A DNA stretch of 59,357 nucleotides, taken from Amaricoccus macauensis (GTDB lineage: Bacteria > Pseudomonadota > Alphaproteobacteria > Rhodobacterales > Rhodobacteraceae). The translations under genes and the position numbers were made by a program. The stretch lies in assembly GCF_014201905.1 (NCBI RefSeq), contig NZ_JACHFM010000008.1, positions 1 to 59,357 on the forward strand, in the 5' to 3' direction. How positions within the stretch are numbered: the first letter of the stretch is position 1; every line of letters starts with the position of its first letter. The notes under the pieces were generated by a model. It ran no database searches. It was not told where the DNA came from and worked only from the letters and a program-made list of their open reading frames with translations. Of this stretch, positions 1 through 59,357 are shown one piece after another.

Positions 1-82
1 CGAGGCTGAGGCGGAGGCGGCACGGCTCGGGATCTGGTCGACCGAGTTCGAGATGCCGTGGGACTATCGCCGGGCGCATTAG
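1..82 (+). CDS. C-terminal end of a staphylococcal-nuclease-like protein (partial)
   Basis: An open frame enters from the left edge (first full codon at base 2) and stops at TAG 80-82. The 26 visible residues end in a GIWSTEFEMPWDYRRAH tail. A small acidic/alanine helix followed by G-(I/L)-W and a final F..PW..R is typical of the C-terminus of thermonuclease (SNase) family proteins, which are secreted or periplasmic Ca-dependent nucleases. The active site lies outside the window, so activity cannot be judged. The next gene encodes an Excalibur Ca-binding domain, which often occurs fused to or beside SNase domains and supports the call. The family rests on a short tail only. Confidence 0.55.
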   Translation, partial: EAEAEAARLGIWSTEFEMPWDYRRAH

Positions 83-157
83 CGAAGGCGCGAGGCCGGC
101 ATTGAGCGGTTGCACGGCGATGCCTTAGGGTCTGGTCCGGGGAGCTGGGGGGCGGTC

Positions 158-340
158 GTGCGGTTCATTCTGGTTGTTGCGGCGATGCTGGCGGCGCCGG
201 TGGCGTCGGCAAGGGACTACGATTGCGGCGATTTCTCGACCCAGGCCGAGGCGCAGCGGGTCTACGAGGATGCCGGCCCGGGAGACCCCTATCGGCTCGA
301 TCGCGATCATGACGGGGTCGCCTGCGAAACCCTGCCCTGA
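158..340 (+). CDS. Small secreted Excalibur calcium-binding domain protein
   Basis: The open frame can start at ATG 110, but GTG 158 is preferred. It gives a 60-residue protein beginning directly with a signal peptide ([18 protein letters not shown]), with purine-rich GGGGAG/GGGGGG upstream. After the predicted cleavage the mature part has [14 protein letters not shown], then [13 protein letters not shown]. This is the Excalibur pattern: a first Cys, then a DxDxDGxxCE calcium loop with a second Cys that probably forms a disulfide. Excalibur domains bind Ca extracellularly and often accompany nucleases. Its place 75 bp after the SNase-like tail suggests a periplasmic nuclease pair. Function beyond Ca binding is inference. 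Confidence 0.7.
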
Positions 341-522
341 CGGATGCGACGGGCGCGTCCCGGCATCGGCCGGGACCGGGCTCTACTCGGCCGCGCCGGC
401 CTCCCCGAGCCGGCAAGCCGTCTCGGCCCATTCGGGTGACGATCCCTCGCGCGAGCCCCCGCCGTTGTCCGTGGTTGCAGACCGGCCACGTGGCCCCAAT
501 GGCGCAGCTTCGAGCTAGCGGT

Positions 523-858
523 TCAGTCTCCTTCTGGGAAATCACAGTGACAGTACCACTGACCGTTCTGCGAGAGCGTCCTACAGCCGACCACGTTGCA
601 ACGGCGATTGCTGGGTGCACATCCGCCAGCAATGAAGACGCAGCGATTATCTCTAATCTCTTCATCCTTGACTGTAATTCCTAAATCGCTTTCTATTAAT
701 GTTTTCCACTCCATTGGAGTAAGAGGCTGTAAAAACTTGCGTCCCTCTGAAGAGACTACGATCCGAAATCCATAAGGAAAGATAACACCTTGTGCGGCGT
801 CCAAAAGTCCCGCTTCGCTTAGTGCCGCCACTACCGAATCTGGATCTACCTGGGGCAT
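523..858 (-). CDS. Orphan 111-aa protein with a six-cysteine C-terminus
   Basis: This frame encodes 111 residues from ATG 858. Its base composition is clearly lower in GC than its neighbours, and codons such as AAA, TTT and ATT are frequent, which suggests recent acquisition. The N-terminal two thirds (MPQVDPDSVVAALSEAG..., then PLTPMEWKTLIESDLGIT) look like a soluble helical domain. The last 40 residues hold six cysteines spaced C-x6-C-x6-C-x4-C-x10-C-x-C and end in an acidic PEGD. I do not recognise a family. The layout of leader-like helices plus a Cys-rich tail could be a metal-binding or disulfide-rich protein, or a precursor peptide, but no modification enzyme is visible nearby. It has no partner on its strand and sits between genes of the opposite strand. 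Confidence 0.5.
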   Translation of the reverse strand: MPQVDPDSVVAALSEAGLLDAAQGVIFPYGFRIVVSSEGRKFLQPLTPMEWKTLIESDLGITVKDEEIRDNRCVFIAGGCAPSNRRCNVVGCRTLSQNGQWYCHCDFPEGD

Positions 859-1185
859 GATGTTCCCTACTAACTGGGGCGTCCTCGAAGCGTACAGTTC
901 CCGCCTGAGTCGAAACAGTGCGATTTAAACGCGCGTGCGGAGCTGGTGCGAATGGCAAGATTGTGGCCACGCCAGACGGATCAGAACGCTTAGATCGACG
1001 AGCCACGGTCAGCCTCCTGTTTCGCAGCGATGACACCCTCGCGGATCGCAGCCAGGGCGTGCCCGGCGCGGACGCGCCGGCAACCACGAATACGGCTTCC
1101 GCTTCGCAGATCCTCCGCATTCGCGGTTGCCCCCTGCCCTCTTCCGATCCGCCGGCCGGTCGTCACCGAAACAACGGAGGCTGAC
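859..1185. other. Intergenic region, no gene seen
   Basis: I see no convincing gene in these 327 bases; open frames here have no ribosome site or protein-like composition. The stretch must hold the promoter of the minus-strand orphan and the leader of the 73-aa gene. It contains one compact perfect inverted repeat, CCGGCGC (1063-1069) and GCGCCGG (1074-1080), with a 4-base loop and no T tract, so it is not a clear terminator. A strong ribosome site (ACGGAGG) ends the region just before ATG 1186. Confidence 0.5.
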
Positions 1186-1407
1186 ATGACCCGCTACGTC
1201 CTTACCGTCCCCTACACCTTCGAGCGCAACGGCCAGACCGAGACCCGCTTCCGCCGCGTCGGCGCGATCTTCGAGAACGCCCGCCGCGAGACCGGCGAGG
1301 TCTTCCTCTCGGTGAAGCTCGACTTCCCCGTTGCCGCTACCGAACTCGTCGGCTTCCCGCCCCGGCCGGAAGACGACCCGGCCTCGGACGAGGTCACGCA
1401 GTCCTGA
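1186..1407 (+). CDS. Conserved-looking 73-aa hypothetical protein upstream of ardC
   Basis: ATG 1186 is chosen over the upstream in-frame ATG 1030 because ACGGAGG lies 6-7 bases before it and the upstream extension looks non-coding (Arg/Pro-rich). The 73-residue product starts MTRYVLTVPYTFERNGQ, has alternating beta-strand-like segments and ends in an acidic tail with PPRPEDDPASDE. There is no signal peptide or membrane segment. It is followed by a strong rho-independent terminator and then the ardC region, both on the plus strand. I do not recognise the family. Position in the presumed leading region of transfer suggests a small plasmid-maintenance or establishment protein, which is inference only. 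Confidence 0.65.
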   Translation: MTRYVLTVPYTFERNGQTETRFRRVGAIFENARRETGEVFLSVKLDFPVAATELVGFPPRPEDDPASDEVTQS

Positions 1408-1417
1408 CGGACCTCGG

Positions 1418-1447
1418 AGGGCGGCCGACAAGGCCGCCCTTTCCTTC
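1418..1447 (+). terminator. Rho-independent terminator after the 73-aa gene
   Basis: A perfect 9-bp stem, AGGGCGGCC (1418-1426) and GGCCGCCCT (1432-1440), with a 5-base loop GACAA is followed by TTTCCTT. It lies 11 bases after the stop of the 73-aa gene and would insulate it from the octamer array and ardC leader that follow. Confidence 0.8.
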
Positions 1448-1452
1448 GCTAT

Positions 1453-1505
1453 GCGACGGTACGGATATACGGCAAAGCGGCAGAACGCCGATACGTCATA
1501 ACGGC
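1453..1505. repeat. Seven-unit 8-bp-phased repeat array upstream of ardC
   Basis: Seven consecutive units start at 1453, 1461, 1469, 1477, 1485, 1493 and 1501, exactly 8 bp apart: GCGAC, ACGGA, ACGGC, GCGGC, ACGCC, ACGTC, ACGGC. Each is followed by three mostly A/T bases (ggt, tat, aaa, aga, gat, ata). The consensus RCGNC-NNN is the same as in the larger array at 4226-4551 beside virC1. The array is immediately followed by an inverted repeat GATCGCC-AA-GGCGATC (1509-1524). It is probably a binding site for the same ribbon-helix-helix or ParA-partner protein, placed to control ardC or to act as a second centromere/overdrive block. Confidence 0.75.
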
Positions 1506-1508
1506 TGA

Positions 1509-1885
1509 GATCGCCAAGGCGATCGTGATGATCAACGGCCAAGACGGGAGATCGACGGGCCGAGGCCCGCTCACCCCCTCCCTGACGACTTCGCCATGCC
1601 TGACGTCCGCCCAGCATCCGGGCGCCCGCGCGTCAACCGGCAAGCGGCGGCGAGGGCCGCCGGCTCCGCCGCCCCCCGTGTCCTCGCCTCCGGCTGCGGG
1701 CCGCGCCAGGGGCGTCTCCGCCCGGTTGACCCGCGTCCGCCCGGCCGCGGGTCGGGCAGCGCCCTCCCCGCTCTGCCCACCCGGGAAATGCGGAGAGCAT
1801 TTCCGGTCGGTCGACCGGGAGGCGCCGCCCAGACGGCGGGCCGAGGGCAGAAGACCCCGACCGCTCCACCACGAAGGAGACGGAC
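1509..1885 (+). promoter_or_regulatory. Long, highly structured leader upstream of ardC
   Basis: There is no gene in these 377 bases, but the stretch is packed with inverted repeats. They are GATCGCC/GGCGATC (1509-1524); GTCAACCGG (1632-1640) pairing with CCGGTTGAC (1722-1730) around GC-rich inner stems such as GCGGCGG/CCGCCGC; GGGCAG/CTGCCC in 1753-1778; GGAAATGC/GCATTTCC near 1783-1804; and the palindrome CGGTCGACCG nearby. It ends at the ardC ribosome site (GAAGGAGACGGAC). This could be a structured mRNA leader, a small RNA, or a single-stranded-DNA promoter that folds on the entering strand. Nothing here matches a riboswitch I know. The structure is seen; the role is inference. Confidence 0.45.
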
Positions 1886-2782
1886 ATGACCGGCAAGTTC
1901 GACGCGCAGCAGGAAGTGACGGACCGCATTATCGCGGCGATCGAGGCCGGCACGCCGCCGTGGCGGAAGCCGTGGACCGGAGACCGGGGCGGCGCGGCCT
2001 TTCCGCTGCGGGCCTGCGGCGAGCCCTACCGTGGGATCAACGTCATCCTGCTCTGGCTCGAGGCCGACGCGAAGGGCTACACCTCGCCGCACTGGTTCAC
2101 CTATCGGCAGGCGCAGGAGCTGGGGGCCCATGTCCGGAAGGGCGAGAAGTCGGCACCGGTGATCAAGTTCGGCACTTTCGACACCGAAAAGGCCGAGCCG
2201 GCGGGCGAGGATGCCGCGACACGCAAGGTGATGTTCACCAAGCTCTACCACGTCTTCAACGCCGACCAGATCGACGGGCTGGCGGAGGGCTACTATCGGC
2301 GGCCGGAACCGGCTCGCGACCTCGGCACCGAGCCGGACGCCGAGCTGGAGGCCTTCTTTGCGGCAACCGGTGCGGTCATCGAGACCAGCGACGACCCCCG
2401 GGCCTACTACAACCCGGTGGCCGATCGCATCCACATGCCGCCGGTTCGCACCTTCGAGTCCGCGGGCGCCTACTACGCGACCCTGGCCCACGAGGCGGCG
2501 CACTGGACCGGGCACGGCACCCGCCTCGACCGCATCAAGAAGTTCGCCGACCGGAAGGCCTATGCTTTCGAGGAGCTCGTCGCCGAGCTCGGCAACGTCA
2601 TCCTTTGCACCCACCTCGGGCTCACCCCGGATTTCGAGCAGAGCGGCGCCTACGTCGAGAGCTGGCTCAAGGCGTTGAAGGAGGACAAGCGGGCGATCTT
2701 CCGTGCCGCCGCCGAGGGGCAGAAGGCGGCAGACCTGCTTCTGGCGCTTGCCGACGTCGACGAGAAGGAGGCGGCCGCATAG
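1886..2782 (+). CDS. ardC: ArdC-like antirestriction protein (DUF1738, zincin-like domain)
   Basis: The 298-residue protein starts at ATG 1886 after AAGGAGACGGAC. The N-terminal half has the ArdC signature: an early helix with TPPWRKPW, then GEPYRGINVILLW, SPHWFTYRQAQELGAHVRKG and KLYHVFNADQI. This region binds single-stranded DNA in ArdC of IncW plasmid pSa. The C-terminal half is a zincin-like metallopeptidase domain with LAHEAAHWTGH near residues 200-210, giving HExxH plus a further His, and an FEELVAELG helix carrying the presumed third ligand. ArdC proteins protect incoming conjugative DNA from restriction. Its plus-strand orientation and place about 1.9 kb on the leading side of the predicted nick fit expression soon after entry. 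Length is normal for the family. Confidence 0.9.
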   Translation: MTGKFDAQQEVTDRIIAAIEAGTPPWRKPWTGDRGGAAFPLRACGEPYRGINVILLWLEADAKGYTSPHWFTYRQAQELGAHVRKGEKSAPVIKFGTFDTEKAEPAGEDAATRKVMFTKLYHVFNADQIDGLAEGYYRRPEPARDLGTEPDAELEAFFAATGAVIETSDDPRAYYNPVADRIHMPPVRTFESAGAYYATLAHEAAHWTGHGTRLDRIKKFADRKAYAFEELVAELGNVILCTHLGLTPDFEQSGAYVESWLKALKEDKRAIFRAAAEGQKAADLLLALADVDEKEAAA

Positions 2783-2801
2783 CGGCCTCCCCTGCCCTAC
2801 T

Positions 2802-2845
2802 AAGAAATTTGGCCGGTTGGGCAATCTCTGGATTGCCCAACCGGC
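2802..2845 (-). terminator. Hairpin terminator between ardC and virC2
   Basis: A perfect 15-bp inverted repeat, 2812-2826 and 2831-2845 (core GGTTGGGCAATC), has a TCTG loop. Read on the minus strand it lies 34 bases after the virC2 stop and is followed by AAATTTCTTA. It sits between convergent genes and probably ends the virC transcript, and possibly the ardC transcript too. Confidence 0.7.
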
Positions 2846-2879
2846 GTAGCGCCTCCGGCGCTGGCCCAAGGACCGATCC

Positions 2880-3497
2880 TCAGCCCTCTTCGTTCGCGGC
2901 TGGCAAGGTCGGTGCATGTCCGGCCGATACCCGTATTCCTCTCTCGAGGTATCGGGCCAGCGCGGCCATGCTGATAGCGCGTCCCAATCCGCCGGGAGTC
3001 TCCAGATCCAAAGGGTCGAGAGCCGCCTTGGCGGCAGCATAGAGCCCAGGGCTCAGCATCTTGGTAGTGTTGAGGCTGACCTTTCCGGCGGGATAGGTCG
3101 CAGGACTGATCCTCTCGCCCCGCTCCACCGCGTCGGCCAAGTCGGAAAGCGAACGAGAGAGCAGCCGTTGCAATGCGCGCTTCTCTCCCATGGATGCCGC
3201 GGCCTGGTCGAACAGCGGAAAGGCGCCCGGCTTTGGAGCCGGAACGCGTAGCTTCACCGGAACAGTTCCCTCGCTGTCCTCCGCTGGTGACCTCGTTGGC
3301 GCCGCCCTCGGAGGGCGAGCTTTCCGTGTGACAGGCTGAGGCCGCGCTTTCCTATCAGCTTGGGGTTCTGGGGCAGCCGTCGGCGGCGCGGCGGCAGGTT
3401 CCTCGGGTGCCTCTGCGGGAAGAGGCAACCCGCGCTTCATGTTGAACTCGCGCCGCTGCGCCTCGTAGCTCTTTTTCGGTTTGACGATGCCCGCCAC
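2880..3497 (-). CDS. virC2: VirC2-like relaxosome accessory protein
   Basis: This 205-residue protein starts at GTG 3497, with TGGAGGAA overlapping the end of virC1. The first 85 residues are a low-complexity Ala/Pro/Arg linker. The C-terminal ~115 residues resemble Agrobacterium VirC2 as I recall it: RALQRLLSRSLSDLADAV, then ISPATYPAGK, TKMLSP, and DPLDLETPGGLGRAI before a final helix. VirC2 has a ribbon-helix-helix fold, binds overdrive DNA and helps VirC1 increase T-strand production. Order and direction (virC1 then virC2, diverging from virD) match the Ti plasmid virC operon. It is the best candidate to bind the 8-bp arrays in this window. The assignment rests on remembered sequence, not an alignment. 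Confidence 0.75.
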   Translation of the reverse strand: MAGIVKPKKSYEAQRREFNMKRGLPLPAEAPEEPAAAPPTAAPEPQADRKARPQPVTRKARPPRAAPTRSPAEDSEGTVPVKLRVPAPKPGAFPLFDQAAASMGEKRALQRLLSRSLSDLADAVERGERISPATYPAGKVSLNTTKMLSPGLYAAAKAALDPLDLETPGGLGRAISMAALARYLERGIRVSAGHAPTLPAANEEG

Positions 3498-3499
3498 TG

Positions 3500-4192
3500 C
3501 TATTCCTCCAGAGCCACGAGTACGTCTGTCGCCAGCTCGTCGGCTTCGGCCATGGCAATCTTGAAGTGCTTTGCCGAAATGCGGCTCGCTGGATCCAACT
3601 CCTTTGCACGGACGGTCAGGTGGAGCATGCCGTCCCTCTTCATGCTGGCGTAGGCATCGCGATCCCGCAGCTTGGTGGCTAACATGGGAAAGACTTCCAG
3701 CCGATCGATCTCGATCTGTCGGGACTTGTTCGGCGTGTGGGGGAGCTTCGTGACCAGCAACGCTATAAGCGTGTTGGTCCCCTCCTCCTCGATCTGGTCG
3801 TGGACAAACTCCATCGTGTTGACCGCCTCGTCGATGTCGTATGTCGTGATCGCCGTGGGGACGATGACCAGCGCCGAGTTCGCGACGACGATGCTGTTGA
3901 TTTCGGACCCGCCACCGTGGGTGTCAGCGAGCATGAACTCGACCCCCTGTTTCTCGGCTTCCACGACCGCTTTCTCAAAGCTGTCGAGATCGGCTGCGAA
4001 GTAGATCTGACAGGTGTCGTCCCAGCGGCCGGCGGCTTTGGCGTAGCTGCGCCACTGCGAGATCGGGGCGTTCTCGTCGCCCTCGAGAAGGGCAACCTTG
4101 CGGCCGCGAGCCAGGAGGGCCGAGCAGAGGGCGCTCAGCGCCGTCGTCTTGCCGGCCCCTCCTTTCAACGAGACGAAACTGATCAGCTTCAT
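3500..4192 (-). CDS. virC1: VirC1-like ParA-family ATPase
   Basis: The 230-residue ATPase has the deviant Walker A motif KGGAGKTT at residues 10-17, a Walker B-like strand with FMLADTHGGGSEINS, and no DNA-binding N-terminal extension. Segments ALLEGDENAPISQWR, TTYDIDEAVNT and RDAYASMKRDGMLHLT match VirC1 of Agrobacterium more closely than chromosomal or RepA-type ParA proteins as I recall them. VirC1 gathers relaxosomes at the cell pole, brings VirD2 to the VirD4 coupling protein and with VirC2 stimulates border nicking through overdrive. The ATG at 4192 opens a minus-strand operon with virC2; its upstream region is the octamer array. A plasmid-partition ParA is the alternative, but the VirC2-like partner and oriT context favour VirC1. 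Confidence 0.85.
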   Translation of the reverse strand: MKLISFVSLKGGAGKTTALSALCSALLARGRKVALLEGDENAPISQWRSYAKAAGRWDDTCQIYFAADLDSFEKAVVEAEKQGVEFMLADTHGGGSEINSIVVANSALVIVPTAITTYDIDEAVNTMEFVHDQIEEEGTNTLIALLVTKLPHTPNKSRQIEIDRLEVFPMLATKLRDRDAYASMKRDGMLHLTVRAKELDPASRISAKHFKIAMAEADELATDVLVALEE

Positions 4193-4225
4193 TCGGTCCC
4201 TTCCACCACTTCCCAGAACCGCAAT

Positions 4226-4551
4226 GCGGCATCACGGCGAAGCGGCAAAATTCGAAAACGCCAAAACGGCATAGCCACCGATACGCTTAAACTACCCTAG
4301 CGGCGATGCGTCAACGCGCGGATACGGCACAGCGTTGAAGCGGCGACGCGCCGTTGCGAAAAAGCGACAAACACTGAGATACGGAAAACAGCAAAGAAAC
4401 GCAAAAGCGCCTGAAGGCCGGATACCCCATAAACGGCAAAGCGCGGTTAACATCAAAACGCCATAACCGCAGAACGTCATAAGTGCTATAATCAAAAAAC
4501 GACGAAACGCATAAACGTGAATACCGCCGTGCGTCACTACGGCAGAGCCTT
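4226..4551. repeat. Large array of degenerate 8-bp repeats in the virC-virD intergenic region
   Basis: The array consists of 5-base GC units (RCGNC, most often ACGGC, GCGGC or ACGCC) separated by three mostly A/T bases, repeating every 8 bp. In-phase runs start at 4226 (seven units to 4274), 4300 (nine units to 4364), 4399 (two), 4433 (two), 4458 (four units to 4482) and 4499 (seven units to 4547). Runs are joined by short spacers that shift the phase by one or two bases. It lies between virC1 and virD1 and ends about 100 bp from the border-like nick site. Likely roles are an overdrive-like transfer enhancer, a centromere for VirC1/VirC2, or an operator array for virC. It is too short-phased and degenerate to be a CRISPR. 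Confidence 0.85.
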
Positions 4552-4636
4552 TTGGGGTCCGCGGGAGGGTCGAAGCAACGAGCGCCCCAGCGGCCCGCTG
4601 AGCCGCCGGGAGAAAGGGTTGAAAAGAGTGAGAGGG

Positions 4637-4666
4637 TTGGGTTAGATTGATGGCAGGATATATAAA
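4637..4666 (+). promoter_or_regulatory. Possible virD promoter overlapping the nick site
   Basis: TTGGGT (4637-4642) lies 16-18 bases before TATATA (4659-4664) or TATAAA (4661-4666), inside an AT-rich stretch just before virD1 ATG 4685. No clear Shine-Dalgarno sequence precedes that ATG, so the leader would be very short. The -10 element coincides with the border-like sequence, so relaxosome binding could repress virD expression. This is prediction only. Confidence 0.4.
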
Positions 4667-4675
4667 AATGTAGAA
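4651..4675 (+). other. T-DNA-border-like nic site (predicted oriT)
   Basis: The first 13 bases, TGGCAGGATATAT (4651-4663), are identical to the core of Agrobacterium T-DNA borders. After a variable A-rich spacer, GTA at 4670-4672 matches the conserved distal block of the 25-bp consensus, leaving one mismatch (G at 4673 for A) among its specified bases. It is 10 bp upstream of virD1 and next to virC/virD genes. By analogy, VirD2 would cut the minus strand as TATATCCTG|CCA, between bases 4654 and 4653, and lead with the strand running toward lower coordinates. That places virC1, virC2 and ardC in the leading region and virD1/virD2/virD4 in the part transferred last. Confidence 0.88.
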
Positions 4676-4684
4676 CATTTAACG

Positions 4685-5218
4685 ATGACCCAACCCAAGG
4701 CCACCGACCGAGCCAGCAAGAGCGCCGCCAATGACGGCGCCGCCTCCGGCTGGCGCGATCGCCAGATGATCCGCGGCAAATGGCAGGATCCCGAGGCGGC
4801 GAAGAAGGAGCCGCGCGCCGATCGCACGATCTCGATCCGCCTGACCGAGGCCGAACTCGCCGAGTTCGACGCCCAGATCGCGGGCCTCGGCCTCAACCGA
4901 AACCGCGCCTTGCGGATCGCCGCTCGGCGGATCGGCGGCTTTCTGGAGGTCGACGGGGAGACGGTGGAGGCGCTGCGCTCGATCAACCGGCAGCTCGCCG
5001 GCGTCGCGACGAACATCAACCAGATCGCGCATTCGGCCAACCGGACGCACGATCCGGACTATCGCGCCTTCATGGCGCAGCGGGCCGAACTCGGCCGGAT
5101 CCTGATCGAGACCCGCGGCGCGCTGCAGCGGATCCTCGACCTCGGTGCCCGGCGCGAGGACGGCCTCGGGCGGCTGAAGGCCGCGGCCGCGGCCGAGAGG
5201 GCAGGGGGGCCGGAATGA
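4685..5218 (+). CDS. virD1: VirD1/MobC-family relaxosome accessory protein
   Basis: The 177-residue protein starts at ATG 4685, 10 bp after the border-like site. A polar N-terminus of about 45 residues is followed by a ribbon-helix-helix region (RTISIRLTEAELAEFD, then NRALRIAARRIGGFLEVDGE). A helical MobC-like part follows with RQLAGVATNINQIAHSAN, FMAQRAELGR and LDLGARREDG. The blocks IAARRI.GFLE, FM.QRAELGR and R..DG also occur in Agrobacterium VirD1 as I recall it. VirD1 melts or topologically opens the border so that VirD2 can cut duplex DNA. The stop overlaps the virD2 start (ATGA), so the two are translationally coupled. It is slightly longer than Ti VirD1 (about 147 residues) because of both termini. 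Confidence 0.87.
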   Translation: MTQPKATDRASKSAANDGAASGWRDRQMIRGKWQDPEAAKKEPRADRTISIRLTEAELAEFDAQIAGLGLNRNRALRIAARRIGGFLEVDGETVEALRSINRQLAGVATNINQIAHSANRTHDPDYRAFMAQRAELGRILIETRGALQRILDLGARREDGLGRLKAAAAAERAGGPE

Positions 5219-6927
5219 GCGTGCCGTCGGTTCCCGAACTCCTGCGACGCGGGGCGCAGGCGCCGGCCTGGGTCTCGGCGGTCGACGCGGTGATGGGCGA
5301 AGACTGGGCGCATCTCGAGCTCGGACGCGGCAGCGCCGTGCGGCTGCCGGTGGACGAGGGGCGGCGGACGGGAGCGCGGCGGCGGGCGGCGATCGGCGGG
5401 GCGCTGTCGCCGAACCCGCAGGCGCTGGTGAAGCTGATCTGCTCGGGCGGCACGGCGACGAGCGGCGCGCTGCGGGCGCAGATGGACTATCTGAGCCGGC
5501 AGGGCGACGTGCCGCTGGTGTCGTCCGAGAGCACCTTCGGAACCGAGCTCTGGGTCGGCGATGCGGCGCAGATCGCCGCTGCCTGGGGGCTGCCGGATGT
5601 TGACCGGGGCGGGGCCGACCGGACCTCGCACTTCGTGGTCAGCTTTCCCCAGGGGACCGATCCGGACGCGGCCGAGCGGGCAGGGCGGGCGTGGGCGGCG
5701 TCGCTCTTCGACAGCGGCGCCCATGGCGACCGCTGGGACTATTACACCGCCTTCCACAAGGACACGGCCTATCCGCACATCCATGTCGTCGTCGGCCGGC
5801 GCGGGCTCGACGAGGGGCAGTGGCTGCGGGTGTCGTCGCGCGGAGAGCTGACCTTCGACCGGCTGCGCGAGGTGCAGGTCGCAGTGGCGGCGCGGGAGGG
5901 GATCGCGCTGACCGGGACGACGCGGCTGTCGCGCGGGGTGCATGATCGGCCGGTGCCGGATGCCGAGTACCGTCGCGCCCGCACCGAAGGACGGGAGGCG
6001 GTGGCGCCGGCGCATACCGAGGCCTCGGCGCTCGCCACGGCGGCGGAGATCCTCGACTACGCCCGGAACTACCAGGGCGCGGCGGCATCGATCGCCGAAC
6101 GGGCGCCGGAGCTTGCCGGTCGGCTGGAAGCCGCGGCGGCGACGATCCTTGCAGGCCAGGAACTTGTGGCGGAGCGCGCGGCGGCGCCGAGATTGACACC
6201 AGAGGAGGCCATGCGGATGGCGGAGACGATCGAGCAGCTGCAGGCCGAGGTGCGGCAGAACTTCGTCGAGCTCGAGGCCGACGTGCGGTCGGTCGAGAAT
6301 CCGGCGAAGCGGGCGGAGTTCCTGCGCGACCTCGCCGGGCTGAAGGCCGAGGCGGCGCCGTTCATCCGCGACGATATGGGGTTGCAGGGCTACCGGGCCG
6401 AGGCGGTCCACGCGGACTACCGCGGGCTGGCGGTGCCGGCCGGCGATGCGCGGACGGCAGCGATCAAGGTCGAGGCCGACAGGGACGTGGCACGGCTCGC
6501 CGAGCGGTTCGGCTTGCAGCCCGAGGCGACGCTGGCGCGCTTCGCGGCCGGGACGGTGTCGATGGGGCTCGGGCGCGACTACCGGGCAGAGGAGCTCGCC
6601 GAGCGGGCGGCGGATCGCATGGCGCGGGGTCAGCCGGCCGAACGGGTCGACGAGGCGACGGCGCAACTCGCCGACTTCCACCGCCGTGTGGGGACGATCT
6701 ACCGCGAGGCGGCCGAGCGGGTGCGCGAGATTGAACGCGAGGACCCGCGCGGCGCGCCCGACCTCGGGACGACGCGGGACGCCGTTGGTGGACGCGGGCA
6801 GGCTCGCGGCGGGGAAGGGGGCGCCAGGCCGTCGGCCGGTCGTGATGACGACGTGCCGGAAGGGCGCGGCAAGCCCGAGCGGCCGGGCCGGCGCCGCGAC
6901 CGCGACGACGACGATCGGAGCCGGTGA
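5215..6927 (+). CDS. virD2: VirD2-type relaxase (MOB-P family)
   Basis: ATG 5215 overlaps the virD1 stop and gives 570 residues. The relaxase domain covers about residues 70-260. Motif I is QMDYLSRQGDV, with probable nicking Tyr92. A strand SHFVVSFPQGTD follows, then motif III HKDTAYPHIHVVV, with metal-binding His181, His188 and His190. Further blocks (REGIALTGTTR, then RGVHDRPVPDAEYRR) parallel Agrobacterium VirD2. Residues 260-520 are an Ala/Glu-rich, probably coiled helical region. The last ~45 residues are an alternating Arg/Asp tail like the VirD2 export tail. An N-terminal extension of about 70 residues precedes the usual start of VirD2 and is odd. It cuts oriT, stays on the 5' end and pilots the strand into the T4SS. 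The stop overlaps virD4. Confidence 0.9.
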   Translation: MSVPSVPELLRRGAQAPAWVSAVDAVMGEDWAHLELGRGSAVRLPVDEGRRTGARRRAAIGGALSPNPQALVKLICSGGTATSGALRAQMDYLSRQGDVPLVSSESTFGTELWVGDAAQIAAAWGLPDVDRGGADRTSHFVVSFPQGTDPDAAERAGRAWAASLFDSGAHGDRWDYYTAFHKDTAYPHIHVVVGRRGLDEGQWLRVSSRGELTFDRLREVQVAVAAREGIALTGTTRLSRGVHDRPVPDAEYRRARTEGREAVAPAHTEASALATAAEILDYARNYQGAAASIAERAPELAGRLEAAAATILAGQELVAERAAAPRLTPEEAMRMAETIEQLQAEVRQNFVELEADVRSVENPAKRAEFLRDLAGLKAEAAPFIRDDMGLQGYRAEAVHADYRGLAVPAGDARTAAIKVEADRDVARLAERFGLQPEATLARFAAGTVSMGLGRDYRAEELAERAADRMARGQPAERVDEATAQLADFHRRVGTIYREAAERVREIEREDPRGAPDLGTTRDAVGGRGQARGGEGGARPSAGRDDDVPEGRGKPERPGRRRDRDDDDRSR

Positions 6928-8813
6928 TGACGCGGCGCGGACAGGACATCCTGCTCGGCGGCGGCGTGGGGCTGATGGTCGGCATCCTGCCCGGCCTGCT
7001 CGCCGCCGGTGCCGTCGTCACCTGGCGGCTCGGCGGCGATCTGGGCGAGATCGATCTCGCGACTTATTTTCGTACGCTGCCTGCTGCGGCGCGCTGGGAG
7101 GGATTGCCGACGACAGCGGCGTTGATCGGGGTAGGGGTGGCGCTCGCCTTCGCCCTGGCCGGCATCGCGCTGCTGTGGCGACCGCAGCTGAGCCTACACG
7201 GCACGGCCCGCTGGGCCGAGCCGGGCGAGCTGCGTCGGGCCGGGCTGCTGGCGCGGCGGCTCGAGGAGGTGCGCGGGCCGATCTGGGGCAAGCTCGGATC
7301 GCCGAAGTCGCGGGCGCCGTACCTGAGCTCGGAGAAGATCGTGCATTCGCTGGTGGCGGCGCCGACCGGGGCAGGGAAGGGGGTCGGGGTCGTCATCCCG
7401 ACATTGCTCACCTACCCGGGGTCGACCGTGGTGCTCGACGTCAAGGGCGAGAACTACGAGAAAACCGCGGCGCGGCGGCAGGAGCTCGGCGACCGGGTGT
7501 TCAAGTTCGCCCCCTACGCCAAGGATCGACGGACTCACCGCTACAACCCGTTCGACGAGGTGGCGGCGGCTCCGGAGCGGCGGCGGTTCTCCGAAGCGCT
7601 GCGGCTGGCGAACAGCCTCGTGGAGGCGAAGGGCAAGGGGACCGAGTCCTGGGTCGACGGTGCGCGCGAGATCTTCGCGGCGACGGCGGTGGTTGCGCAC
7701 GAGCGCCGAACGCCGACGATCGCTGCGGTCTACGACCTGCTGACGGAGGCGGGAGCGCCGGGAGCGCTGCTCGAAGGGCTCGCGGCGAGCACGCAGTCCG
7801 GGGAGGCGCGGTCGGTGTTCAATCGCTTCGCCGGCCAGCCAGAGAAGGTGCTCGGCAGCTACATGTCGGTGCTCTTCGACGGTGGTCTGCGGCTCTGGGC
7901 CGACCCGGACGTCCGCGACGCGACCGCGGCAACGGATTTCTGGATCACCGACTTCCGCTCGGACCCGGCGAGCGTCTTCCTGTGCGTCAGCCAGAAGGAC
8001 CTCGGCGTGCTGTCGCCGCTGATCCGACTGATGTTCCAGCAGATGTTCACACTGCTGCAGGAGACTGACCAGACCGAGAAGGATAAATTCGACGTGCTCT
8101 TCCTGCTCGACGAGTTCGCCTCGCTCGGAAAGATGCAGGAGATGGGACGGGCGATCACCACGGTGCGCTCCTCGGGCGCGCACCTGATGCTGATCGTTCA
8201 GTCGCTCGCCAACCTGCGTGAGGTGTATGGCACCGACGGTGCAGCGAACTTCATGGGCAACTGTGAGCTGCAGCTCTTCATGGCGCCGACCGATGCCGAT
8301 ACGCCGCGGTACGTTTCCGAGGCGATCGGCGACCAAACGCGGATGGTGCGGGTGAAGTCCTGGCGGCAGCGCGGCTGGGACGCAGCGTCGATCCAGGAGC
8401 GGCAGGAGGGAATCCGGCTGATCCGGCCGGAGCAGATCCGCATGCTGGGGCCGGATGCGGCGATCGCGTTGGTGCGGGATCAAAACCCGGTGCGGATGGC
8501 GAAGGTGCGGTACTACGAGGACCGGGGGCTCAGGGCGCTATACGAGGGGCAGAAGGGCGTCGGACCTTTCCAGGAGATCGGCGAGATGCCGGAGGCAATC
8601 CCGCCTGGGGGGGACAACGAGAAGAAAGTGGCCTCCAACAACGGACCTGAAAAGCGGGCCGAACCCTCGCTGGACTCGGGCCACGATGTCGTTGTGAAGT
8701 CAGCGATTCTAGAGACGCCGGTAGCGAAGCTTAGGATTGTCCGAGGAAAGCAGGTCGACCTCAGGCAGGCAATAGCTGTCTACCGACAAGGTCCGGAGGC
8801 TCTGAGAAAGTGA
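6927..8813 (+). CDS. virD4: VirD4/TraG-family type IV coupling protein
   Basis: ATG 6927 is used; it overlaps the virD2 TGA by one base, although GTG 6924 is also in frame. The protein has about 628 residues. Two N-terminal membrane segments (about residues 8-35 and 60-85) precede the cytoplasmic P-loop domain, with Walker A APTGAGKG near residue 150 and Walker B FLLDEFASLGKM near residue 395. Other hallmarks are LDVKGENYEKTA, RYNPFDE and FLCVSQKDL. A hydrophilic C-terminal tail of about 70 residues is less conserved. It links the VirD2-DNA complex to the VirB channel at the inner membrane. It is the last gene of virD1-virD2-virD4, and its 3' end marks the left edge of the cargo. Confidence 0.93.
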   Translation: MTRRGQDILLGGGVGLMVGILPGLLAAGAVVTWRLGGDLGEIDLATYFRTLPAAARWEGLPTTAALIGVGVALAFALAGIALLWRPQLSLHGTARWAEPGELRRAGLLARRLEEVRGPIWGKLGSPKSRAPYLSSEKIVHSLVAAPTGAGKGVGVVIPTLLTYPGSTVVLDVKGENYEKTAARRQELGDRVFKFAPYAKDRRTHRYNPFDEVAAAPERRRFSEALRLANSLVEAKGKGTESWVDGAREIFAATAVVAHERRTPTIAAVYDLLTEAGAPGALLEGLAASTQSGEARSVFNRFAGQPEKVLGSYMSVLFDGGLRLWADPDVRDATAATDFWITDFRSDPASVFLCVSQKDLGVLSPLIRLMFQQMFTLLQETDQTEKDKFDVLFLLDEFASLGKMQEMGRAITTVRSSGAHLMLIVQSLANLREVYGTDGAANFMGNCELQLFMAPTDADTPRYVSEAIGDQTRMVRVKSWRQRGWDAASIQERQEGIRLIRPEQIRMLGPDAAIALVRDQNPVRMAKVRYYEDRGLRALYEGQKGVGPFQEIGEMPEAIPPGGDNEKKVASNNGPEKRAEPSLDSGHDVVVKSAILETPVAKLRIVRGKQVDLRQAIAVYRQGPEALRK

Positions 8814-48679: not shown

Positions 48680-49438
48680 ATGTGCAGGGACGGTCCCATC
48701 GAAGAATTGGCGGGGCGGCTCAAGCAATGCCTGGTCGAGCGTGGCCTTCAGCCGATTTGGATCAGCATCCGGGACGAGATCGCAGCAGCCATTGCCGAAG
48801 GTCTGATCCGGCCCGGCATGCCGATGCCGAGCGAACGCCTTCTCGCGAACGAACTCGGGGTCTCGCGGATGACGCTCCGCCGCGCCCTCGGCGCACTGAG
48901 CGAGGACGGCCTCGTGGCACGCCAGCAGGGCGCCCGGACGGCCGTGGCGCGCAGACTGGAGAAGTCGGTCTCGCGACTGGTCGGCTTCTCCGAGGACATG
49001 CGGGCGCGTGGCCGGACGCCCGGGGCGGTCCTGATCGCCAGCACGGTGGCGAGACCGACCAAGGCCGAGATGGCAGCGCTCGGGCTGGAAGGGGATGCGA
49101 GCGTGGTGCGCATCGAGCGCGTGCGTCTGGCCGACCTGGAGCCTGTCGCCATCGAGCGCGCGGTGCTCCCTGCGGCGATCCTCCCCGATCCGTCCATGGT
49201 CGGCGAGTCGCTCTATGCCGCGCTCGACGCCCTGGGTATGCGGCCGGTGCGCGGGAGCGAGCGGTTCCGCGCCGTGGTGGCTCTGCCGCGGGATGTGCGC
49301 CACCTGTGCTGCGCGCCCGGCGCTCCCCTCCTCAGCATCGAAAGGCGCTGCTTCGCCGCGGCGGGCGTCCCCGTCGAATTCACCGAAACCCGCTATCTCG
49401 GCGAGGCGTACGACTTTACCGTGGATCTCATCCGCTAG
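48680..49438 (+). CDS. GntR-family (HutC/UTRA) regulator
   Basis: The 252-residue protein has a GntR winged helix at about residues 25-90 ([52 protein letters not shown]) and a UTRA domain with [36 protein letters not shown] and [18 protein letters not shown]. This is the NagR/DasR build, which senses GlcN-6-P or GlcNAc-6-P. It is divergent from the two oxidoreductases and 65 bp upstream of nanE. Confidence 0.92.
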
Positions 49439-56551: not shown

Positions 56552-57571
56552 CTAGCGGGGGCCCGGAATAGGCTTTGCCAAGGCTGGCAGATGAATCTCT
56601 AGGACACCGCGCTGTCCGCCGCGGCGTCCAACTTGGATGATCAGGTCGAGCGTGCGAGCCGCATACTCCAATACATCACTCCGAGTCTGCCGGTTGCCGA
56701 CTCGCATCACCATCAGCGCTAGTCGCTCTAATGCCAGAACCGGACTGTCCGCATGGATCGTGCTGATCGAGCCAGGATGGCCGGTGTTGATCGCCTCGAG
56801 AAAGGCGAGGGCCTCTTCGCCACGCATCTCGCCAAGGATGAGCCGATCAGGTCTCATCCGAAGTGCAGCCACCAACAGCTTAGCTGGCGTCCGCTCCGAC
56901 GCCTCAATCCGCTCGGCGATCAGTGCCACACTGTTCTCATGCGGCAGATGAAGCTCCCGAGCATCCTCGATGGTCACCAGTCGCTCTGCTGGATGCGCAA
57001 GGGACAATAGCGCCCGCGCCACCGTGGTCTTGCCTGACGACGTCCCGCCCGAAACGAGGATGTTCATCCGCTGATCGATGGCCCGCTGGAAAAGCTCGGC
57101 GAGCCGCCCGGCCTCGGCCAGTTCCGCGAGCTCCGCGAGCCGCGCGCGCCGCTCGCCTTCGACGCTCACCTGTCGTCCCTCCAGGAACCCGATCTCGCCG
57201 ACGTCCAGGATCCGCGAGACGTACTTCCGGATCGACAGCGACGCCCCTTCCTCAACCGCCGGCGGCACGACGATCTGCACGCGCAACACCTGGCCGAAGG
57301 CGTGCAGGCTCCCCGAGACGATCGGATGCTTCGGCCCCAGCCGATTCATCGTCTCCCCGGCAAGGTGTTTGCTGAGCTGCAACACCTTCCCCTGTGGAAA
57401 CCTGTGCCCGGTCTTCACCATGTGCTCGGCATCGGCGCGCTCGGCCCAGACTTGGCCGTCGGGATTGATCACCACCTCGTTGACGTCGTCGGCGACGAGC
57501 AGCGGCCGGAGTTCCCGGAGATCGTGCTCGGCATGACTGCTGGATGCGAGCCGGGCAGGGGTCTCGCCCAT
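56552..57571 (-). CDS. virB11: VirB11-family T4SS ATPase
   Basis: ATG 57571 overlaps the virB10 TGA by one base and gives 339 residues. An N-terminal domain with VVINPDGQVWAERADAEHMV is followed by the RecA-like domain: ILVSGGTSSGKTTVARALL (Walker A), TIEDARELHLPHENSVALI (Asp box), LRMRPDRLILGEMRGEEA (Walker B region) and GHPGSISTIHADSP (His box). The hexameric ATPase powers pilus assembly and substrate transfer on the inner membrane. Its 3' end faces the cargo. Confidence 0.95.
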   Translation of the reverse strand: MGETPARLASSSHAEHDLRELRPLLVADDVNEVVINPDGQVWAERADAEHMVKTGHRFPQGKVLQLSKHLAGETMNRLGPKHPIVSGSLHAFGQVLRVQIVVPPAVEEGASLSIRKYVSRILDVGEIGFLEGRQVSVEGERRARLAELAELAEAGRLAELFQRAIDQRMNILVSGGTSSGKTTVARALLSLAHPAERLVTIEDARELHLPHENSVALIAERIEASERTPAKLLVAALRMRPDRLILGEMRGEEALAFLEAINTGHPGSISTIHADSPVLALERLALMVMRVGNRQTRSDVLEYAARTLDLIIQVGRRGGQRGVLEIHLPALAKPIPGPR

Positions 57572-58848
57572 CAAAACACCAGATCTCTATTGACGAAGAT
57601 GGTGAGCCGGTCGCCCTGGTCGACGTTGATCGTCGGCGGGATGCGCAGGTAGGCGTCGAGCGCCGAGCGCGAGGTCGACTCGAGGTCGCCGCCCATGGCG
57701 TCGATCGCGTCGGCGACATCCTCGTCGGTCTCGTCGTCGATGGCGAACTGCGGCCCGAGCGCGAAGATCGAGATCAGCGCCGCCGAGCCGAACCGCTCCC
57801 AGAAATGCGTGTCGACATGCCCGGTCTGCCCGCTCCGCCCGAGCGCATCGGCACCGATGCCGCCGAGCGCGACGCTGGTCCCCGCCGGCGTCACCGCCCG
57901 GTTCCAGGCGATCAGCGCCCGGCGCTGCGCGATCTTGACGTTGGAGCTGTAGCTGCCGATCAGCCGGGTGCCGCGGGGGAGGAGCGTGGTCGACCCGTCG
58001 TAGGAGACGACGTCCTCGGTCAGCACCGCCCGGATCGCGCCGGGGAGATCGGTGTTGATTGCCGTCTCGAGCACGCCTTCGAGGATCGTGCCCTGGACGA
58101 TGGTCCGCGACGGATCGGCAATCTGCTCGGCGCGCACGGTCTTGTGGGTCTGCTCGGCCGCCGCGGCGAGGAAGCCCTCGTTCTCGGAGAGCCGCCGCCC
58201 GCCAGCGCCGCCGGCGGCGGTCTCCCCGCCGTTCACCCCGTCGATCACCACGCCGTTCGAGGCGATCTGCGCCTTGTTGATCGCCTCGCGGCGCTTCCGC
58301 TCCTCCTCCATGCGCTTGCGCGCCTCGGCCTCGGCCGCGGCGCCCGTCGGATCGACACCGGCGGTGACCGGGTTCCGGGCGAGGAGCTGCCGGGTGATTT
58401 CAGCGCGGAGCTGCGCGGCGTTCTGGTCGAGCATCGCCTGAAGCTCCTCCCGGGTCATCCCGCCGGGCTGGTCGGCAAGCGCCCCCAGCCGCGCCTCCAT
58501 CTGGTCGAGGCGCAGCTGATCCTCCGGGGTCAGGCCTTGCGCCTTCGGTGGCGCCACCGGCAGCTCGGTCGAGAGTTGCGCGGTGTCGACGCTCTCGCCG
58601 CGCGGGACCTCGGTCGAGATGCCGTCGGTGAAGGCGGCCGGCTGCTGCATATCCTGCGGGCGCGAGGTCCCGAAGCCGAAGAGCGAGCGGACCTGCGCCG
58701 GGGCGAAGGTCCAGAGCGCGCCGACGACGAGCAGCACGGCGATGAGGATGCCGCCGGCGGTGCGCGGCCCGCGGCCGGGACGGGCCGGCGCCATCCGCCG
58801 GCGGATAAGATCGAGACGGGCGAGCTCCTCCTCGCTCTTCTCGGTCAT
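57571..58848 (-). CDS. virB10: VirB10-family T4SS channel protein
   Basis: The 425-residue protein has a cytoplasmic N-terminus, a membrane helix (TAGGILIAVLLVVGALWTFA), a periplasmic Gln/Glu-rich coiled linker (residues 100-190), and a C-terminal beta-barrel domain: TIVQGTILEGVLETAINTDL, LLPRGTRLIGSYSSNVKI and a closing VDQGDRLTIFVNRDLVF. The TILEG...L(P)G...P(R)GT pattern is diagnostic. VirB10 spans both membranes and forms the core complex with VirB7 and VirB9. Confidence 0.95.
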   Translation of the reverse strand: MTEKSEEELARLDLIRRRMAPARPGRGPRTAGGILIAVLLVVGALWTFAPAQVRSLFGFGTSRPQDMQQPAAFTDGISTEVPRGESVDTAQLSTELPVAPPKAQGLTPEDQLRLDQMEARLGALADQPGGMTREELQAMLDQNAAQLRAEITRQLLARNPVTAGVDPTGAAAEAEARKRMEEERKRREAINKAQIASNGVVIDGVNGGETAAGGAGGRRLSENEGFLAAAAEQTHKTVRAEQIADPSRTIVQGTILEGVLETAINTDLPGAIRAVLTEDVVSYDGSTTLLPRGTRLIGSYSSNVKIAQRRALIAWNRAVTPAGTSVALGGIGADALGRSGQTGHVDTHFWERFGSAALISIFALGPQFAIDDETDEDVADAIDAMGGDLESTSRSALDAYLRIPPTINVDQGDRLTIFVNRDLVF

Positions 58849-59357
58849 TTCGGGAGACCGGGGATGGCGGAGGCGGGCTGGCTGGTCGCGACGAGATAGC
58901 CGGAGCGGAGCGCCTTGGCGCGGCGGCCGCCGGGGACGGTCTTGATGACCCGCCCGTGGGCGACGCAGAGCTCTTCCTCGCCGATCCGGAGCGTCCAGCG
59001 GTCGGAGGTGCCCATGACCACTGCGCCGGTCTCGGTCTCGCGAACGTTGATAATGCTCTCGCGGCCCTGCTCGTCGACGCGGAAGATCGCCGGCCGCGGC
59101 GCATCGCGCGGAAACTCAAAGGTGGTGCGCCGGCCATCGTCATAGACCGCCACGGGGCGGAACTTCGTCGCGGCACCGGCAACATAGTAGTTCGGATCGC
59201 GCGGCCGCGCCTGCTCGACCTGACGGCTCGCCACCTTCGCCCGCTCGCGTTCGGGGTATCGGAAACCGATCCGGTAGCTGAGGGTCGAGGAGCCGGCCGG
59301 GATCGGCACGGCGCGGAGCTCGAAGGTGTAGGTGTTCTGCGAGGTGTAGACCGTCAT
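58845..59357 (-). CDS. virB9: VirB9-family T4SS protein (partial, N-terminus off the window)
   Basis: The frame runs off the right edge; the ATG at 59357 is internal. The visible 170 residues start MTVYTSQNTYTFELRAVP, which is the middle of VirB9 (TNM-x-V-x-T-x-x-R-x-Y-x-F-x-L), then YRIGFRYPERE, NYYVAGAATKFRPVAVYDDG and the C-terminal immunoglobulin-like domain with TFEFPRDAPRPAIFRVDEQG. It overlaps virB10 by four bases. VirB9 joins VirB10 and lipoprotein VirB7 in the outer-membrane core. Order virB9-virB10-virB11 is standard. Confidence 0.93.
   Translation of the reverse strand: MTVYTSQNTYTFELRAVPIPAGSSTLSYRIGFRYPERERAKVASRQVEQARPRDPNYYVAGAATKFRPVAVYDDGRRTTFEFPRDAPRPAIFRVDEQGRESIINVRETETGAVVMGTSDRWTLRIGEEELCVAHGRVIKTVPGGRRAKALRSGYLVATSQPASAIPGLPK

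Follow-up and report, generated by a model that had tools for sequence, protein, structure and literature searches.

Positions 4213-4696 of a 59,357-base stretch of Amaricoccus macauensis DNA (the window; contig NZ_JACHFM010000008.1, here C8) are very probably, at roughly 0.92 by our estimate from comparative sequence analysis, the origin of transfer (oriT) of a VirB/VirD4-type conjugative RepABC plasmid. The predicted oriT contains a block resembling the borders of Agrobacterium transferred DNA (T-DNA), which sits between the divergent virC2-virC1 (minus strand) and virD1-relaxase-virD4 (plus strand) operons. The main case rests on covariation in a hairpin, on the border pattern compared with shuffled sequence, and on the placement of the nick core in related loci by tblastn. 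The initial annotation, made from the letters of the window, had taken the block for an oriT, and this has strong comparative support from the core, kept in 14 of the 16 relaxase-clade loci, and from the hairpin covariation; the annotation did not contain three linked parts found here, the hairpin, an outer inverted repeat and a tandem array. The predicted element comprises the following features.

4213..4553, plus strand: degenerate tandem octamer array of about 38 units, consensus aCGgCAaA, between virC1 and the nick
4634..4696, unstranded: outer inverted repeat with arms at 4634-4642 (GGGTTGGGT) and 4688-4696 (ACCCAACCC)
4651..4675, plus strand: border-like block, nick region of the predicted oriT, by pattern match against shuffles
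4653..4663, plus strand: GCAGGATATAT core, 11 bp, identical in 14 of 15 aligned oriTs with a single mismatch in one
4654/4653, minus strand: predicted nick, 5'-TATATCCTG / CCA-3', position from VirD2/MOBP chemistry
4666..4680, unstranded: inner hairpin AAATGT-AGA-ACATTT; in the cut strand it adjoins the nick on its 5' side

The border-like block and predicted nick region

The 25-base block, TGGCAGGATATATAAAAATGTAGAA (4651-4675, plus strand), ends 9 bp before the virD1 start (4685) and satisfies the 25-bp T-DNA border consensus with one mismatch; this consensus agrees with the Agrobacterium border copies compared here. A search with the border pattern TGGCAGGATATATNNNNNTGTAA, allowing up to three mismatches, returned a single match in the 59,357 bases (1 mismatch), whereas 100 dinucleotide-shuffled sequences gave no match. 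This bears out the earlier description of a 13-base identity to the border core plus the distal GTA, with one mismatch, ahead of virD1, and the view that a chance match is unlikely in such a window. The exact 13-mer TGGCAGGATATAT was the sole window match at two or fewer mismatches, where 0.16 were expected and 15 of 100 shuffles contained at least one. On the minus strand, positions 4660-4653 read TATCCTGC, which fits the MOBP nick motif (C/T)ATCCTG(C/T).

Across the whole genome (4.83 Mb, 18 contigs) a second exact 13-mer was found only on contig C9, likewise between virC1 and virD1. C8 and C9 can be aligned only across window positions 4624-4800 (80%), the spacer upstream having diverged. 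Three copies with one mismatch lie on C1 and C3, and none on C10 and C11, which probably make up the remainder of the plasmids. A second direct border copy bracketing a segment was not found, C8 and C9 having one exact copy each. Exact 12- or 13-mers number at most one per contig in five genomes on the window's side (G000, G293, G297, G299 and G303), so that nothing is bracketed.

Hairpin, outer repeat and tandem array

Downstream of the core the sites share N6-GT-NNN-AC. In the hairpin, 93.3% of the base-pair cells (112 of 120, from 15 different sites) were paired, compared with 70.6% in shuffles and 36-51% when the arms were slid. Both-side changes occurred in six of the eight pairs, which 10 of 500 shuffles equalled; the covariation score was reached by none of 500, and 25 of 500 matched the number of further pair types. 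Because the extraction script required T and AC at three hairpin positions, the two invariant inner pairs are partly produced by construction, although all 16 loci given to the script matched. Two loci, L088 and L098, entered the set after the 12-mer alone had picked them out, since the hairpin was evident. Poor conservation of the 25-bp block in close relatives had been named as one result that would refute the original reading, and it was not what emerged. The 11-bp core and the GT are indeed conserved, but the bases between them vary, under a base-pairing constraint.

The outer inverted repeat encloses nick and hairpin, and its right arm falls within the first virD1 codons. Its mean score over 17 sites was 8.4, whereas mismatched arms averaged 6.2 (0 of 5000 permutations), the arms pairing better within a locus than across loci; taken singly, 5 of the 17 sites exceeded the 95th percentile. 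The inverted repeat near the nick that characterizes MOBP/VirD2-type oriTs is thus present here in both the hairpin and the outer repeat.

An array of 8- or 9-bp units stood out clearly in 14 of 15 spacers; the remaining one had a period of 17, and 7 Agrobacterium or rhizobial spacers had no array. We propose that it is the VirC2/VirC1 binding region. The Tandem Repeats Finder program, at a score of 30, detected no array in the window, probably owing to the degenerate units. Helical phasing of the array (10-11 bp) was rejected on the measured period of 8 or 9. A homology with overdrive was also not supported, as overdrive lies on the opposite side of the border and no array was found beside 7 Agrobacterium borders. 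In a search for period-8 signal in the 250 bp flanking each side of two orphan sites (described below) and of the borders from Agrobacterium and rhizobia, the top mean Z was 1.4 and occurred inside a telomere array. The stimulator of pRi8196 is reportedly built of 8-bp units.

Conservation and specificity

For 14 of the 16 loci in the relaxase clade of the window, tblastn placed GCAGGATATAT (mismatched in one) in the interval from virC1 to virD1, and L088 and L115 also have the core there. The same placement was seen in six of seven annotated plasmids (from Acuticoccus, Jiella, Roseobacter, Phaeobacter and Haematobacter). In the seventh, the Haematobacter locus L043, an IS110 gene abuts the relaxase gene and the stretch has no virD1 or virC1 match; in L058, also without the site, the relaxase match is broken across frames. 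Both of these clade loci look damaged.

A VirC1 scan of the species genomes gave at least 33 loci, of which 17 (L045-L061) were examined and sixteen weaker VirC1 matches were left out. The core was exact in five (L046, L047, L052, L054 and L059) and had one mismatch in L055. The remaining 11, namely Agrobacterium L045, L049, L050 and L057, rhizobial L048, L051, L053, L056 and L060, and L058 and L061, had 2-4 core mismatches; a reversed control motif had 2-4 in all.

A covariance model built on 35 bases was run against 292 genomes of the order with a reporting threshold of E ≤ 0.01, and identified four sites in three genomes (the window plus C9, G139, and an R. litoralis plasmid on which the model had been trained). 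Among 385 genomes of the class, only three sites fell below E 1e-5 (the window, C9 and G451), with one extra weak hit (E 0.004) that has no mobilization genes nearby. Scoring at most 7 candidates per genome, a VirC1 scan of the same 385 genomes gave three hits above 200 bits (G451, C8 and C9; the next scored 80), and the site is present in all three. The G451 site, between virC1 and virD1, is the sole independent one, the window and C9 being members of the training set. The large-scale covariance-model scans ran stricter filters, which lose weak matches.

Two orphan sites, on G139 C18 and G299 C44, have no mobilization genes within 1.5 kb. The ends of these contigs overlap by 123 and 77 bases, so they are probably small circular plasmids, and a tblastn search with the window relaxase gave no match on either. 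From their sequences, the plasmids look mobilizable in trans. The two orphan-oriT plasmids are 8197 bases (L128) and 9003 bases (L129) long; L129 encodes a Rep3 initiator beside a D5-type protein and has a Mu-gpT-like capsid gene and a ClpP-like protease gene. Among the matches listed in a literature search whose coverage excluded most subscription journals, there was no apparent prior description of this oriT.

Gene context and probable host plasmids

The genes that flank the predicted oriT, and those at the far end of the window, are as follows.

2880..3497, minus strand: virC2 (PF07181, E 4.1e-7; PDB 2rh3 VirC2, E 3e-7)
3500..4192, minus strand: virC1, ParA-like ATPase (PF07015, E 1.8e-72; under the NCBIfam VirC1 equivalog cut-off)
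4685..5218, plus strand: virD1, relaxosome accessory protein (PF07328, E 1.7e-17; NCBIfam VirD1 135.9 bits, cut-off 173)
5215..6927, plus strand: VirD2-like relaxase with an N-terminal extension, predicted Tyr92 and HIH (188-190) by alignment
6924..8813, plus strand: virD4 coupling protein (PF02534, E 1.1e-90)
56552..57574, minus strand: virB11 (PF00437; named from family and gene order)
57571..58848, minus strand: virB10 (PF03743)
58845..59357, minus strand: virB9-like frame at the contig end, named from gene order

The relaxase is 39% identical to VirD2 of strain B6 over 195 amino acids, with MDYLSRQG aligned to LEYLSRKG and the HxH motif also aligned, so that a cognate MOBP relaxase with Tyr and HxH motifs lies beside the predicted oriT. 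A search of solved structures with the relaxase gave nothing useful. All NCBIfam scores fall below their cut-offs (VirC1 240/313, VirD1 136/173, VirD2 136/623, VirD4 654/681 and VirC2 39/255 bits); the VirC and VirD proteins of the window are related to the families of tumour-inducing (Ti) plasmids but outside them by the equivalog cut-offs.

One end of C11 encodes virB4, virB5-like, virB6 and virB8, and an end of C10 has virB4 and virB8 too; RepC is encoded on both. The C9 terminus resembles that of the window, and the virB9-like, virB10 and virB11 frames have 97, 96 and 91% identical copies on C9. Similarly, C10 holds copies of the C11 genes virB4 (98% identical) and virB8 (97%). C8-C11 would then represent two co-resident sister RepABC plasmids, interrupted in the assembly at the virB8-virB9 junction; no overlap was found between these contigs. 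In the predicted leading region (window 1-2880) the scanned frames had no Pfam or NCBIfam match. The equivalent region in L038, L040 and L041 is annotated with zincin-like or ArdC-like genes, and ArdC-type genes were not found among the scanned frames of window 1-2900. No relatives were found among viral contigs.

Proposed mechanism and alternative explanations

In the proposed mechanism, VirD1 and the VirD2-like relaxase would bind the nick region and adjoining hairpin, and the relaxase tyrosine would cut the minus strand between 4654 and 4653 and remain on the 5' end. The strand would exit toward lower coordinates via VirD4 and VirB, the virD genes entering last; this direction follows from established VirD2/MOBP chemistry. 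The ParA-like VirC1, with VirC2, may load on the array and stimulate or position the relaxosome, as VirC1 does at overdrive. The hairpin might act both in recognition and in closing when the returning end is rejoined, in analogy to the role of the hairpin in rejoining in RSF1010.

The position of the block 9 bp from the virD1 start, and the general tendency of operators to be symmetric, raise the alternative that it is a virD1 promoter and operator, with a palindrome bound by a ribbon-helix-helix protein, a TATAT box resembling a -10 element, and an incidental likeness to borders. We regard this as highly unlikely, since the core equals both the MOBP nick motif and the T-DNA border core, and arm sequence shifts while pairing is kept. 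Moreover, the core lies about 70-190 bp ahead of the annotated virD1 start in the six annotated plasmids, and the orphan copies occur on two small plasmids where virD1 was not found within 1.5 kb. Operator and oriT roles could coexist. The block could instead be one border of a true T-DNA destined for a eukaryotic recipient: the core is the same, transfer by roseobacter type IV secretion systems to eukaryotic hosts has been suggested (PMC4886583), and plasmids with the right border alone do transfer (PMC5985610). However, there is at most one exact copy per contig, the hairpin is absent from Agrobacterium borders, and the site lies inside the mobilization operons, making this explanation less credible still.

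Least probable of all is a secondary or decayed nick site, with the working oriT elsewhere on the plasmid. The nick position is predicted from sequence, and a single working site might serve both sister plasmids; yet the site is kept in both of them though the upstream spacer diverged, and the block is conserved across the clade.

Relation to T-DNA borders and relaxase ancestry

For this comparison we used exact 12-mers, 8 from three Agrobacterium genomes and 15 from five rhizobial genomes; the rhizobial list contains one extra row that is not a border. Four copies without GTA were set aside as chance (L100, L085, L095 and, from a Jannaschia genome, L087; contigs of 603, 482, 449 and 40 kb), among them the eighth exact Agrobacterium copy, on the 603-kb contig. 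GTA was present 7-9 bases past the core in 14 of 17 oriTs (GT in 17/17), in 7/7 Agrobacterium borders and in 11/13 rhizobial borders, counts that the setting aside of those four copies favours. A contiguous stem of at least 5 occurred in 16 of 17 oriT sites, whereas a stem of at least 4 was seen in 0/7 Agrobacterium and 2/13 rhizobial borders (both from AFS068226). The stem length is 6 in the window, which accordingly has a hairpin after the core, and at most 3 in the Agrobacterium borders. Under the covariance model, five oriTs tested scored 41-49 bits and every border 22.9 or less. From the GTA and stem counts, the distal GTA of the border therefore coincides with the tip of the oriT hairpin. 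The sequences thus suggest that T-DNA borders are a stripped-down version of such an oriT, consisting of the nick core and the GTA of the hairpin tip. As the initial annotation had noted, the borders of Ti plasmids lie far from virC and virD, which here are together with the nick; in strain B6, the four copies are tens of kb from virC1.

In a tree of 48 relaxase rows (L009, L013, L022 and L050 were excluded as near-duplicate or short, and L048, L060 and L061 had no relaxase match), the 16 oceanic rows of the window's clade formed one group (support 98/99), and a second group (100/99) joined three rows each from Agrobacterium and from rhizobia. These sister clades are both separate from 26 other roseobacter relaxases (96/87). 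The tree is midpoint-rooted and has long branches, among them those of rhizobial rows. In the outgroup, GCAGGATA occurred within 1.2 kb upstream in 13 of 27 loci and not in the other 14, with 0 for the reversed control; 11 of the 13 form one clade with TTGGCAGGATA and a 3-5-pair hairpin, and two are singles. With a nick in cis in both the window's clade and this outgroup clade, the cis arrangement is the more parsimonious older state, a conclusion resting mainly on the one outgroup clade. The suggestion that the window holds the ancestral conjugative form is thus upheld in part, as to the sister clade and the cis nick of one outgroup clade; window-type plasmids are living cousins, not the ancestor.

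A broader synthesis is offered tentatively, at clearly less than even odds. These plasmids may keep the complete oriT, with VirC-bound iteron array, nick core and closing hairpin, from which the border was cut down, the border GTA (7-9 bases past the core) being a remnant of the hairpin tip. Loss of the arms would mark the switch from conjugation, where the strand is recircularized, to one-way linear delivery, a linear fate that would be visible in the rhizobial branch as telomere-type repeats just inside borders.

Telomere-type repeats in rhizobial segments

Arrays of 4 to 17 perfect TTAGGG/CCCTAA units abut borders, in telomere orientation, in Mesorhizobium sp. GbtcB19, Rhizobium terrae and Rhizobiales AFS068226, whose relaxases belong to the clade that is sister to the window's. 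In AFS080716, 3 units lie some 105 bp away from a border copy. Across 125 loci (857 kb, partly overlapping), ten listed arrays of at least 3 units represent six distinct ones, five within about 110 bp of a border and the sixth at a contig end facing one. The loci concerned are as follows.

L082/L118 (G300:C68:26455-26513)
L117:30-47
L092 (G300:C270:1-39)
L083 (G298:C45:8843-8899)
L102 (G296:C46:2329-2457)
L101 (G294:C62)

The GbtcB19 segment, of about 26.5 kb, has repeats at both ends and a border at one; the border of the other end would lie across a contig break. The segment resembles a T-DNA with telomere seeds as caps, whose recipient might be a fungus or some other eukaryote that has TTAGGG telomeres; among the papers listed in a literature search, none reports a telomere-capped T-DNA. 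Its frames include an M24 peptidase, a TauD dioxygenase, a histidine phosphatase plus SDR, and a SIS domain; 5 of the 10 scanned frames were unmatched and one transposase-family match fell below cut-off. A protein of about 410 amino acids is common to both telomere-bearing segments (L121:7252-8502 and L118:3106-4347; 52% identity over 414 amino acids), and its AFS068226 copy had no Pfam match. Fungal-type introns were considered for the rhizobial segment, and a crude pattern count gave no excess. In Rhizobium johnstonii 3841 pRL7 (L122; NC_008382, 44854-54574), five border copies in the same orientation lie within 10 kb, and those at 48927 and 54563 are followed by the overdrive-like TTTCTTTGT, which points to a pair of small segments, about 1.2 and 1.3 kb long, bounded by borders.

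Implications and comparison with known systems

It is accepted that T-DNA transfer derives from conjugation. A plasmid family that unites VirC, VirD and a border-like oriT represents a concrete intermediate toward it and makes the origin of T-DNA testable in marine bacteria. The finding predicts former functions for the parts of the border and, for VirC1/VirC2, a proposed original role as a partition-like complex on iterons at an oriT. It also supplies a specific motif for spotting mobilizable plasmids in marine Alphaproteobacteria.

Compared with the border system of Ti plasmids, the window has related VirD1, VirD2, VirC1 and VirC2, and GGCAGGATATAT with an equally spaced GTA is found in 7/7 Agrobacterium copies taken as borders. 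The differences are the distance from virC1 in strain B6 and the hairpin, found in 0/7. Overdrive at Ti right borders is an enhancer in cis bound by VirC1 (PMC4285021), as is proposed for the array. In contrast, overdrive is 24 nt long (PMC5030305) and lies on the opposite side of the nick, with no period-8 array detected.

The IncP/RP4-type MOBP oriT shares the (C/T)ATCCTG(C/T) consensus and a nick-proximal inverted repeat (PMC3772185), and, as in the oriTs described there, the hairpin of the cut strand adjoins the nick on its 5' side. The window differs in its added ATAT, VirC genes and octamer array, and its relaxase matches MobP1 weakly. In Helicobacter pylori tfs4 the nick motif TATCCTGC and an inverted repeat likewise precede a virD2-like relaxase gene, and interaction of the VirD2-like relaxase with a putative VirC1 is reported; however, the relaxase is described as phylogenetically distinct and the repeat is longer, at 25 bp (PMC3772185). 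Dinoroseobacter shibae also has two sister RepABC plasmids with virB and virD operons, whose conjugation has been studied (PMC4886583); the main text of that paper uses 'oriT' or 'origin of transfer' 0 times.
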